From IMG/VR virus record IMGVR_UViG_3300009124_000127, positions 1 through 20,379 of that record: DNA of 20,379 bases. One strand, given 5' to 3'. This document shows, piece by piece, positions 1-18,457 of the stretch. The first letter of the stretch is position 1. Every line of letters begins with the position of its first letter. Both the position numbers and the translations under genes were made by a program. The notes beneath the pieces are model-generated. The model saw only the letters and a list, made by a program, of their open reading frames with translations, had not been told where the DNA came from and did no database searches. This DNA is from a virus.

Positions 1-135
1 TATGGGACTGCGACGAGAGGTGTATCTGGACAACAAGATCCAGGCACTGCTGGCAAGGTAGCAGGATTCTTAGGGTTTGCTGGAGATGCTTATAACTTTG
101 GGAAGGACCAAGGTTGGTGGGGCGGGGGCGGTTAG
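1..135 (+). CDS. 3' end of a Gly-rich protein (partial)
   Basis: Frame 1 is open from the window edge to a TAG at 133-135, giving 44 residues that end in two tryptophans and four glycines. The 5' end lies outside the window. It sits 6 bases before the next plus-strand gene, in the same direction, so it is probably the preceding gene of the virion-protein operon. The visible residues are Gly/Ala-rich with no motif I recognise; the rich Gly tail resembles tips of phage structural proteins, but that is only an impression. No function is assigned. Confidence 0.6.
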   Translation, partial: YGTATRGVSGQQDPGTAGKVAGFLGFAGDAYNFGKDQGWWGGGG

Positions 136-13698: not shown

Positions 13699-13825
13699 CT
13701 TAGATCTGAACGAGCGGGAGGTCGAAGAACTTATGGAGAAGTACGATGACCTAGTCGAGAAGGTGGATAAGATGATGGCGCTGCTCGAGCGTATCAGTGA
13801 TCACATTGAAGGGGAGGTGGCGTGA
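13688..13825 (+). CDS. 45-aa coiled-coil protein
   Basis: A short gene between the primase and the GIY-YIG gene, overlapping the former by 11 bases and the latter by 4 (GTGA). The ATG is preceded by AGGAGAGAAGG, a strong ribosome site. The protein is very acidic and almost entirely helical with Leu/Val/Met at heptad-like spacing (VEELMEKYDDLVEKVDKMM). It probably forms a dimeric coiled coil; the function is unknown, and a replisome accessory or adaptor is a guess from position. Confidence 0.72.
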   Translation: MKVNLDLNEREVEELMEKYDDLVEKVDKMMALLERISDHIEGEVA

Positions 13826-14532
13826 AAGAAAGGTGGCCAGAATGGATACCTAAAGAATCCAGGAGGGCTTGGCTTACAAGCTCAGAACTTAATAAGTTAT
13901 TGATGATAGATGGGATTAGTTGTGCTGGTTACATTCAAAGGCAAGAAAGACTTGGTAAGCCCATCAAGCACAAGATTTATAATGCCGGTAAAAGATACAG
14001 AATACTTGATGTCATCGCTCGAGCAAGGGCCGAAGCAGTTAGCATAGGTCGGCCTAAAATCATTAAAGAAAAGATGGACGTAGATTTTCTGATTGAAAAA
14101 CGGAATAAGCTTGAACAAGAAGTAACAGATCTCTTAGATAAAAGAAATGCTCACTTAGCGGAGTCTCATTTTATGTCAGACGCTTTGACTGGCAAGCATA
14201 TGCTCATCGAAAGAGAGATCGTAAAGGTTGCATCACCGATTGATACAAGTGATTACTGCGGCGTATATTTTTTGGTCAAGGGTGATCGCGTAGTCTACGT
14301 TGGGCAGTCGATACACATACAAATGCGGGTAAGAGAACATTCAAAGGATAAAGACTTCGATTCTTTTTCTTTTATAAGATGTGAAAAGAAAAAGCTTGAT
14401 GTGCTTGAAAGCTTGTACATCCACGCACTAAGGCCGGAGCAACAGGGTAGGTCTGGTCCTCGTAGGCACAAGATAATGGCTGCGCCGTATAGTTTTAATC
14501 AGTTGCTTGAGATGACAAAGGAGATCGCGTGA
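13822..14532 (+). CDS. GIY-YIG endonuclease-like protein with N-terminal DNA-binding region
   Basis: 236 residues from GTG 13822, with GGGGAGG just upstream; the start overlaps the 45-aa gene by 4 bases. The C-terminal ~90 residues carry a GIY-YIG fold: CGVYFLV (147-149), VVYVG (159-161), Arg169 on the first helix and Glu196 in LESLYIHAL, in the correct order and spacing. The usual terminal Asn is not obvious. Residues 15-75 resemble a helix-turn-helix DNA-binding segment and 84-115 a helical linker. It could be a free-standing homing endonuclease or a phage nuclease for DNA processing. There is no intron or disrupted host gene next to it, so mobility is not demonstrated. Its stop overlaps the next start (GTGA). 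Confidence 0.82.
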   Translation: MKERWPEWIPKESRRAWLTSSELNKLLMIDGISCAGYIQRQERLGKPIKHKIYNAGKRYRILDVIARARAEAVSIGRPKIIKEKMDVDFLIEKRNKLEQEVTDLLDKRNAHLAESHFMSDALTGKHMLIEREIVKVASPIDTSDYCGVYFLVKGDRVVYVGQSIHIQMRVREHSKDKDFDSFSFIRCEKKKLDVLESLYIHALRPEQQGRSGPRRHKIMAAPYSFNQLLEMTKEIA

Positions 14533-15335
14533 ATCCGTACCTAATTGATGAGCCATCAGTAATTAGCTTTAGTGGTGGGCGTACATCGGCGTACATGCTT
14601 TACAAGGTTCTTGAAGCGCATGGTGGGAAGTTGCCTGACTATGTTGTGGTAGCGTTTTCCAACACCGGCAAAGAGATGCCTCAGACACTTGACTTCGTTG
14701 ATCGGTGCTCAAAGGAATGGGATGTGCCGATTGTTTGGCTTGAGTTCATCAAGGAAAAGAAACCTGGAATTGTCGTGGACTATGAGTCGGCATCAAGGAA
14801 GGGCGAGCCTTTTCACAACCTAATCTCACAAAAGAAGTTCATTCCTAACGACAGGATCCGCGCCTGCACAGAACAGTTGAAGGTAGTGCCGATCAATAAG
14901 TACATGGAATCATTAGGTCATGACCCGTTCTTAACCGTGGTCGGGATAAGGGCAGACGAGCAGAGGCGAGTCGCAAAGCAGCGAGCAAAAGAAAACTACG
15001 CGCTGCCCCTAGCCGATGCCGGTGTAACGCTCCAGGACATCGATGCATTTTGGGCGCAGCAGCCGTTTAAGTTGGACCTGCCTATGTCTCAGAATGGTGA
15101 GAGCCCGTTGTCTAATTGTGACTTATGTTTCTTTAAGAGTGTATCAAGGAAGCTGTCTATCATCAGGGAACAGCCGGACATGGCGGACTGGTGGATCGAG
15201 CAAGAGGAAAGGATCGGTAACGTATTCCGGCGTCAGCATCCGTCTTACAGGGAACTTAAGATCATGGCGTCTGATCAAGGGCAGTTGTTTGATTTTGAAA
15301 ACGAGGAGTCGATGTCTTGCTTTTGTGGTGATTAG
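14529..15335 (+). CDS. PAPS-reductase-like PP-loop protein with Cys cluster
   Basis: 268 residues, starting at GTG 14529 with AAAGGAG five bases upstream. The adenine-nucleotide alpha hydrolase signature is clear: PP-loop SFSGGRTS (13-20), then RACTEQLK with Cys113, GIRADEQRR (139-147), Cys197-x2-Cys200 and a C-terminal Cys264-x-Cys266. The four or five cysteines suit a [4Fe-4S] site, as in DndC-like and related sulfur or nucleotide-modifying enzymes, but the cluster is inferred. Phage proteins of this family are usually annotated as phosphoadenosine phosphosulfate reductase, although a sulfate role is doubtful in a phage. A part in DNA or RNA base or backbone modification is an alternative. 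No dndBDE, queuosine or thioredoxin partner gene is seen here. Confidence 0.85.
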   Translation: MNPYLIDEPSVISFSGGRTSAYMLYKVLEAHGGKLPDYVVVAFSNTGKEMPQTLDFVDRCSKEWDVPIVWLEFIKEKKPGIVVDYESASRKGEPFHNLISQKKFIPNDRIRACTEQLKVVPINKYMESLGHDPFLTVVGIRADEQRRVAKQRAKENYALPLADAGVTLQDIDAFWAQQPFKLDLPMSQNGESPLSNCDLCFFKSVSRKLSIIREQPDMADWWIEQEERIGNVFRRQHPSYRELKIMASDQGQLFDFENEESMSCFCGD

Positions 15336-17253: not shown

Positions 17254-17589
17254 TTATTTTCCTTTTCTTGCTTTGAGTAGTAAGGCACTTGCGGCCTTTG
17301 ATGGAGGTCGAAAGCATCGGCTCTTGCGAGCTTTGTCTGTCAACCTTTTCTTTGTTCTGAAACAACGGTCGAAGGTGTACGCTTTTCTTCGATGCGGAAT
17401 AGAACAAAACTTTGCACCAACATGGGTGCTTGCGAACTCCACGCGACACCATGCGCAGGTGAAGTTGCGGGTTTTCTTTTGACGATGCATGAAGCTGGAG
17501 TTCTTCCTGAAACCTCCTCGTCTTTCGGTTGGATTATTTTCCTCGATTTCCAGGCTCTCAATCTCGGGCGCTGCGGTGATGCTCGGCAT
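17254..17589 (-). CDS. Small zinc-finger-like basic protein
   Basis: 111 residues; the ATG has AGGAG nine bases upstream. A metal site is visible as Cys45-x2-Cys48, Cys62 and His66 (CAWCRVEF, then KFCSIPHRR), like treble-clef fingers of the FCS type with His replacing the last Cys. Flanking regions are rich in Arg and Lys, so nucleic-acid binding is likely. The N-terminal 11 codons overlap the end of the methyltransferase gene by 32 bases in another frame. The gene might help DNA targeting of the methyltransferase, but that is inferred only from neighbourhood. Confidence 0.75.
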   Translation of the reverse strand: MPSITAAPEIESLEIEENNPTERRGGFRKNSSFMHRQKKTRNFTCAWCRVEFASTHVGAKFCSIPHRRKAYTFDRCFRTKKRLTDKARKSRCFRPPSKAASALLLKARKGK

Positions 17590-18457
17590 AAACTAACTCT
17601 CCTATTCTTTGTACCAGTTGGGGGACTACGGCGTTTCCGAGGGATTTAATTCGGTCCACCCGATTGGGAACCCCATCAACCACTCGGTCCACATCGGGCT
17701 CAGCTTCCCAGTAGGACGATCCGAGTCCTTCGCCTTCGCACAGAGGTACGAGCGCTGGTCCATATGCGTATGGCTTTTGCTCCCGACTGGACCACAGTCT
17801 TTGTATTCGCTCGCTCTCGGAGTCGGCCACATCTTCACGGCTGTCTCCAGACCATCGCCGGACTTCTTGCTCAGACCCTTGCGATTGTAGTTTCCGTGAA
17901 GGGTGGGTGTCGGCCAGACTCTCACTTCCTTGGCGAGCGTTCTCTGGTTCGCGGTGTCCATGTTCTTCCAATCGGAGTTCATTGGCGTGGGCCACAATCC
18001 AGCATCGGTCTCGCTTGTGGTGGGCTTCGACGGCACAAGCCGGAATAACAAACGATTGGACTTCGTAACCTTCGGCTTCCAAGTCAAGGCAAACATCGTC
18101 GAGTGCCATGCTGACGAACCCAGAAACGTTTTCACCAATGACCCAAGCCGGAGCTGACTCTTTGATGACTCGTAACATTTCAGGCCAGAGGTGACGGTCG
18201 TCTTCCTTTCCAAGTTGCTTGCCTGCAACGGAGAATGGTTGGCATGGGAATCCTCCGCAAACAACGTCAATTGCGTTTTTATATTCTCGTCCATCTAATT
18301 TCCTTATGTCTTCGTGAATGGTGATGTCCGGCCAATGCTTGGCCAAAACCTGCCTACAGAATTTATCCTTCTCGCACATCGCGATGGTCTCCATCCCAGC
18401 CCACTCAAGGCCAAGAGAGAAACCACCGATGCCGGAGAAAAGGTCAAGGACTTTCAT
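17558..18457 (-). CDS. dcm: DNA cytosine-5 methyltransferase
   Basis: A 299-aa m5C methyltransferase. Motif I is DLFSGIGG (5-12), motif IV GGFPCQPFS (68-76) with catalytic Cys72, motif VI ENV (109-111), motif VIII-like RDR (149-151), and motif X ends with GNAVVPQL (274-281). The section 155-255 that should hold the target-recognition domain is hydrophilic, rich in Glu, Ser and Arg, with repeated VAHA/LADT/VADS units, and encodes another open frame in +1. The small size suggests a minimal target domain, so specificity cannot be guessed. No cognate restriction enzyme is present: an orphan enzyme that probably protects phage DNA. The ATG overlaps the upstream stop by four bases (ATGA). Confidence 0.9.
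   Translation of the reverse strand: MKVLDLFSGIGGFSLGLEWAGMETIAMCEKDKFCRQVLAKHWPDITIHEDIRKLDGREYKNAIDVVCGGFPCQPFSVAGKQLGKEDDRHLWPEMLRVIKESAPAWVIGENVSGFVSMALDDVCLDLEAEGYEVQSFVIPACAVEAHHKRDRCWIVAHANELRLEEHGHREPENARQGSESLADTHPSRKLQSQGSEQEVRRWSGDSREDVADSESERIQRLWSSREQKPYAYGPALVPLCEGEGLGSSYWEAEPDVDRVVDGVPNRVDRIKSLGNAVVPQLVQRIGELVYAEHHRSARD
17626..18294 (-). CDS. Nested +1-frame ORF in dcm: WPTP-motif protein (possible overprinted gene)
   Basis: 222 codons wholly inside the methyltransferase gene, same strand, shifted by one base. ATG 18294 has AAGGA six bases upstream. The product has a distinct pattern: LTLFAEDS near the start, a Cys/Gly/Ser region ending SSAWHST, LTWKPKVTKSNRLLFRL (70-86), three WPTP motifs (101, 127, 156) and a C-terminus SPMWTEWLMGFPIGW. 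I recognise this order from a family often annotated in phages and Bacteroides. Each landmark is also the +1 reading of a methyltransferase landmark: WPTP against VAHA/VADS, and EWLMGFPIGW against DRVVDGVPNR. Conservation of either frame would therefore conserve the other. It may be translated as a second protein, or be a shadow frame that databases list as a gene. Function unknown. Confidence 0.5.
   Translation of the reverse strand: MDENIKTQLTLFAEDSHANHSPLQASNLERKTTVTSGLKCYESSKSQLRLGSLVKTFLGSSAWHSTMFALTWKPKVTKSNRLLFRLVPSKPTTSETDAGLWPTPMNSDWKNMDTANQRTLAKEVRVWPTPTLHGNYNRKGLSKKSGDGLETAVKMWPTPRASEYKDCGPVGSKSHTHMDQRSYLCAKAKDSDRPTGKLSPMWTEWLMGFPIGWTELNPSETP

Follow-up and report, generated by a model that had tools for sequence, protein, structure and literature searches.

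A nested +1-frame gene in phage cytosine methyltransferases and the putative two-polypeptide enzyme that it would complete

INTRODUCTION

Can one stretch of phage DNA encode a cytosine methyltransferase and, one base out of register, a second protein? The question is raised by a 20,379-base virus record (IMGVR_UViG_3300009124_000127), analysed over its whole length and called the window here. An earlier note, made from the sequence alone, had pointed to a 222-codon +1 frame nested inside a methyltransferase gene, with an AAGGA ribosome-binding site ahead of its ATG at 18294, and had proposed that, if this frame is translated, a single phage locus encodes both proteins by overprinting. We call the long frame D and the nested frame W. 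The open frame, its ATG and the AAGGA site are all present (Table 1). So are the landmarks ascribed to W (three WPTP motifs, LTWKPKVTKSNRLLF and MWTEWLMGFPIGW), and the correspondences drawn between the frames, RDRCWIVAHA with ETDAGLWPTP and VDRVVDGVPNR with WTEWLMGFPIGW, hold. From sequence comparison and structural modelling, we consider it highly probable that the locus specifies a putative two-polypeptide C5-cytosine DNA methyltransferase, in which D would be the catalytic chain and W would contribute the target-recognition domain (TRD) and motif IX.

Table 1. Positions of D, W and their parts in the window
Feature	Position	Strand	Basis
D: putative C5-cytosine methyltransferase large subunit, 299 aa, motifs I–VIII and X	17558..18457	-	Pfam DNA_methylase, HhaI match, AF2 fold
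W: 222-aa nested +1 ORF, putative small subunit, TRD units and motif IX	17626..18294	-	phrog_1008, selection, nesting
AAGGA, Shine–Dalgarno-like site of W, 6 nt before ATG 18294	18301..18305	-	Sequence
W residues 1–100, N-terminal domain over D motifs IV–VIII	17995..18294	-	Both frames constrained
Predicted beta-hairpin, W 69–89		-	AF2, pLDDT about 90 at W residues 71–90
WPTP unit 1, W 101–126	17917..17994	-	Alignment; 88% identical unit in L022
WPTP unit 2, W 127–155	17830..17916	-	Alignment; unit clusters
WPTP unit 3, W 156–195	17710..17829	-	Alignment; unit comparison
Motif IX in W frame, GKLSPMWTEWLMGFPIGWTE, W 196–215	17650..17709	-	HMM matches; graft test
Motif IV PCQPFS in D, catalytic Cys	18230..18247	-	Invariant columns P71 C72 Q73
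D residues 170–265, passenger stretch under W TRD units and motif IX	17663..17950	-	dNN/dSN 0.97 (TRD part); AF2
Motif X IKSLGNAVVPQ in D	17618..17650	-	Invariant G274 N275; confident helices 267–298

RESULTS AND DISCUSSION

The nested frame is an overprinted gene

We counted stop codons in 80 homologous genes, which had been picked by D alignment alone, blind to W. Their +1 frame contains 4 stops, against 281 expected under synonymous permutation, and it is fully open in 77 of the 80 (2.6 expected under the same permutation). No such depletion was seen in the +2 frame of these genes, with 1046 stops observed and 1079 expected. Among 42 methyltransferase genes without a W match, stops occur in the +1 frame at a rate of 0.055 per codon. 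This set comprises single-chain methyltransferases of the ordinary kind and one further gene, L294, apparently of the nested type and overlooked by the W profile.

Selection was then gauged in 46 disjoint gene pairs, in which each change was classified by its consequence in D and in W, and intervals were obtained by bootstrap. This is a simple counting method, similar to OLGenie but distinct from that program. Outside W, the W frame behaves neutrally, with dNN/dNS of 1.05 upstream and 1.09 in the tail. Inside W, the ratio is 0.62 (0.54–0.72) over motifs IV–VIII, 0.46 (0.34–0.58) over the TRD and 0.27 (0.19–0.37) over IX–X; the intervals exclude 1 wherever constraint on W is claimed. For D, dNN/dSN is 0.13 upstream of W, 0.25 over IV–VIII, 0.38 over IX–X and 0.49 in the tail, and over the TRD it is 0.97 (0.89–1.05), indicating no detectable protein constraint. 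Purifying selection hence acts on both frames over IV–VIII and IX–X, and on W only over the TRD.

At the start of W, the D-synonymous rate drops from 1.0 to 0.43. The rate is about 1.0 until 16 codons before this point, 0.78 in the last 15, and 0.3–0.6 from the W start onward. A Shine–Dalgarno (SD) match of at least 4 nt accompanies the W start in 74 of 87 loci with one possible start, compared with 32.7 expected when the codons of D are redrawn synonymously. Relatedness makes the loci less than fully independent, and the z-scores should be taken as upper limits; the effects are nonetheless large. Selection in both frames of the overlap, together with a start signal of its own for W, is what defines an overprinted pair. 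W is a real overprinted gene and not a shadow. The overprinting proposal of the earlier note is thereby borne out: the frame is conserved, and W withstood the test by which the note would have judged it a shadow, namely frequent stops in homologues together with no reduction in synonymous variation.

D resembles a catalytic chain without its small domain

D matches Pfam DNA_methylase (PF00145) at 4.2e-49, but only over profile positions 1–207 of 324. Its sequence match to HhaI covers residues 2–168 only, and it also matches phrog_363. Motifs I, IV (PCQ), VI (ENV), VIII and X are all present, with invariant columns in the alignment, which places D among the C5-methyltransferases; carrying I–VIII and X without IX, it has the composition of a large subunit of the M.EcoHK31I type. 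The AF2 model of D is confident over residues 1–165 and 267–299, with pLDDT <50 over 186–269, and the middle stretch (pLDDT about 40) has no secondary structure. Foldseek aligned this model with M.HhaI over ~165–170 columns (3.6e-15). Judged from these alignments and the model, the portion that D lacks is the small domain, that is, the TRD and motif IX. Because its TRD stretch is unconstrained and is unfolded in AF2, D alone would be without a target-recognition domain.

The same stretch of D contains low-complexity VAHA/VADS repeats, which had been interpreted as a price that the methyltransferase pays for keeping the second frame open. Our data reverse this reading. Since selection over the TRD acts on W and not on D, WPTP is the genuine protein and the VAHA/VADS stretch its shadow, the repeats being the out-of-frame image of the WPTP units.

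W carries exchangeable WPTP units and motif IX

The TRD of W is an array of WPTP units, with a median length of 39 residues and 1–8 units per protein. Whole units have been gained or lost among the window and loci L001, L003 and L007, and the 88% identical counterpart of unit 1 in L022 (Table 1) lies in a gene whose D is 39% identical. Across 33 disjoint pairs, exchanged units of equal length are 75% identical in the W frame versus 36% in the D frame, while the catalytic halves of these pairs are about 42% identical. For one pair of units, identity is 91% in the W frame, 27% in the D frame and 65% at the DNA level. Such tandem exchangeable units between VIII and IX, forming mosaics across backgrounds, are the hallmark of multispecific phage methyltransferases. 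We also asked whether WPTP could be a form of the TRD motif 'TL', P[STCA]PT[ILV]. The pattern P[STCA]PT occurs in 180 of 569 units, which is suggestive only. By analogy, each WPTP unit may correspond to one DNA target.

As for W as a whole, it matches the profile of phrog_1008 ('DNA methyltransferase') at 2e-35 over 212 residues; searches of Pfam, NCBIfam and PDB sequences with W alone gave nothing significant. AF2, run with 67 sequences, returned a low-confidence model (mean pLDDT 58). The C-terminus, L[NS]Pxx[TV]EWLMGFPxGWT, has the spacing of motif IX. With an HMM of this C-terminus, the six best matches in ordinary methyltransferases are motif IX, directly before motif X (E about 0.001–0.015); in L325, for example, LNGFPKGWTE is followed by GMPNRMRYFCMGNALVV. 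Comparison of W with ordinary methyltransferases by hhalign gave weak signals (P 0.017–0.06), mainly at motif IX, with the local matches correctly placed; the comparison sets were 11 and 42 methyltransferases taken as ordinary, the larger including L294, with its row garbled.

In a graft made in silico, the hybrid D(I–VIII)+W(TRD,IX)+D(X) matches the Pfam profile over positions 1–320 of 324, with 171.5 bits. Shuffling motif IX shrinks the match to 1–163 (158 bits); with the TRD shuffled and IX intact, 1–320 is kept (170–176 bits). On the DNA, the order VIII–TRD–IX–X is that of a normal gene; only the frame differs, passing to W for TRD and IX and returning to D for X. A smaller polypeptide, read in another frame, that contains motif IX is the arrangement of the M.EcoHK31I type. 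The partner that the earlier note had left as unknown can be assigned from its sequence: W carries the motif IX and the target-recognition region that D is without, and is very probably the DNA-targeting part of the enzyme, its probable specificity subunit.

One enzyme from two frames

We propose that D and W would share a single mRNA, on which an internal ribosome-binding site and ATG would start W in the +1 frame. D would act as the catalytic subunit, supplying AdoMet binding, the catalytic Cys, motifs I–VIII and motif X, and W would dock on it as the missing small domain to give one enzyme, whose DNA specificity would come from the WPTP units. The likeliest use would be to shield phage DNA from restriction by the host; no gene recognisable as a restriction gene adjoins D/W. 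We infer the two-chain assembly, the choice of target by the WPTP units and the anti-restriction role. We also lean towards a broader view, in which the whole target-recognition module has moved to the overlapping frame, as an array of ~39-residue units that are shuffled and that would each recognise a DNA target of their own. Specificity would then be a separate protein that evolves by cassette exchange while the catalytic frame drifts freely there, in a large phage-borne family.

A single chain could arise instead if ribosomes translating D slipped to the W frame once past motif VIII, joining I–VIII to the TRD and IX and leaving the W start idle. Programmed frameshifting of this kind would fit the placement of TRD and IX directly after VIII in the W frame, the end of W just past IX, and an indel in L185 and L202 that fuses D I–VIII to W motif IX in one ORF. 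Yet constraint on the W frame sets in at the ATG of W, about 100 codons before the TRD, this ATG has an SD site, and a slipped chain would be without motif X. We regard frameshifting as improbable.

W might alternatively be an independent protein, such as a regulator or an anti-restriction factor, that overprints D and stays outside the enzyme. This is very unlikely, given that motif IX is in W and absent from D, that the hybrid completes the Pfam profile only with IX intact, that D, with its TRD stretch unconstrained and unfolded, would be left without a target-recognition domain, and that no standalone W exists among the loci analysed (see below). It would nonetheless account for the N-terminal 100 residues of W, which are without counterpart in ordinary methyltransferases, and for the absence of a Pfam or NCBIfam family match for W alone. 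Least credible of all, and rejected on the substitution test, the unit comparison, the synonymous-rate step and the stop depletion, is a shadow ORF that is open and conserved merely through conservation of the methyltransferase protein: motifs VIII and X of D do dictate part of the W sequence, and W is never found apart from D, but the TRD stretch of D is unconserved while W is conserved, SD matches are enriched, and ordinary methyltransferases lack an open +1 frame.

If the two-chain enzyme is correct, several practical points follow. A database family now 'hypothetical' or mislabelled becomes a probable specificity subunit, and hundreds of annotated phage and prophage cytosine methyltransferases are suggested to be half an enzyme. 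No activity would be expected of D alone, and the TRD that it seems to contain would be useless for predicting targets. The WPTP units may offer a readable code that ties unit sequence to methylated motif. Further, D/W is a clean and widespread overprinted gene, in which selection along the DNA runs D, both, W, both, D; it is well suited to testing overlapping-gene theory and gene finders.

Relation to known split and multispecific enzymes

Two-polypeptide cytosine methyltransferases offer a basis for comparison. The small-subunit gene of M.EcoHK31I is likewise said to be nested in another frame of the large-subunit gene. According to PMC3404938, in M.EcoHK31I (YGGCCR; Lee, Kam and Shaw 1995) motifs I–VIII and X are assigned to the large polypeptide, IX to the small one, and the predicted TRD to the large subunit. 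By this reported motif layout, D/W shares the split of I–VIII and X versus IX. In D/W, unlike M.EcoHK31I as described there, both the selection pattern and the structure prediction assign the TRD to the nested small subunit, a difference that counts against the two-chain reading. Because the TRD is not in its large subunit, D/W is a variant rather than a strict member of the M.EcoHK31I type. It differs further in being a phage gene, in forming a large and diverse family, and in having no recognisable restriction enzyme adjoining.

M.AquI (CYCGRG) also consists of two polypeptides, the small one having IX and at least half of the variable region (PMC3404938). D/W resembles it in dividing the motifs between two polypeptides; unlike W, however, the AquI small subunit also has motif X, and the AquI split falls inside the variable region. 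An AquI-like layout occurs at L175:2293-3595, where D stops right after VIII and a single ORF in the W frame spans TRD, IX and X. This locus, from a single metagenome-derived genome, is a natural case without the TRD frame of D.

Enzymes of the Bacillus phages SPR, SP beta, phi 3T, rho 11 and H2 have tandem target-recognising domains between VIII and IX (PMC8936443), and the WPTP units resemble such an array. Unlike D/W, these multispecific enzymes are single chains in one frame. An account of the phage D/W family was not found in the open-licence literature. Judged against open-licence papers, what is apparently new relative to M.EcoHK31I is the large phage family, the TRD in the nested frame and the exchangeable WPTP array.

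Distribution, annotation and neighbouring genes

A tblastn search with W returned 177 phage records, and W-bearing phages have hosts as distant from one another as Paenibacillus, Lacticaseibacillus, Klebsiella, Mycobacterium, Pseudomonas, Xanthomonas and Bacteroides. Pattern scans found at least 523 viral and at least 406 bacterial stretches coding for W relatives. Whether homologues of W always overlap a methyltransferase, a check that the earlier note had proposed, can be answered: W lies inside a D gene in 286 of 286 analysed loci, in the +1 phase in 282 and with an indel in 4, and standalone W genes were absent from these 286. The apparent sharing of one frame by W and D in the four loci reflects indels breaking both frames, or fusion (L175). 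That a few loci have indels breaking both frames counts against the two-chain reading.

Five near-identical nested-methyltransferase matches (L134, L136-L139) lie at different chromosome sites in a Roseovarius genome, OX638333.1; they are probably multi-copy prophages.

The family that the note ascribed to phages and Bacteroides corresponds to phrog_1008, and W occurs in a Bacteroides phage as well. The suspicion that such a family might be a database artefact can be set aside. The family is real, and its label, 'DNA methyltransferase', is imprecise, as it does not convey that W partners a second methyltransferase ORF and lies nested in it, out of frame. Across the hundreds of phages and bacteria concerned, the arrangement mostly lacks annotation or is wrongly annotated, and annotation of the two frames varies. 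Both are recorded in Paenibacillus larvae phage Shelly ('g55 internal gene'), and a second 'DNA methyltransferase' is annotated at the nested frame in K1ind2 and PhiXhv-18; other annotators recorded D alone. In Pseudomonas phage PMG1 (L039) and Xanthomonas phage FoX4 (L045), D was missed and only W is annotated, as 'hypothetical protein'. In Guernseyvirinae records, the W frame bears the label 'putative Mte8-like protein' (L287, Salmonella phage W5_chr3; also the PMG1 notes). The name Mte8 may be a mnemonic for E. coli modification methylase.

Two other genes of the window were noted. An ORF at 13822–14532 (+) contains GVYFLVKGDRVVYVGQS and is GIY-YIG nuclease-like, although neither Pfam nor PHROG gave a match at the thresholds applied. 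A PAPS reductase-like gene lies at 14529–15335 (+), matching PF01507 (7.4e-08) and phrog_424; in Bacteroides phage BKO1-TP3 (L038:2884-3789), an annotated PAPS reductase sits just downstream of the nested methyltransferase.
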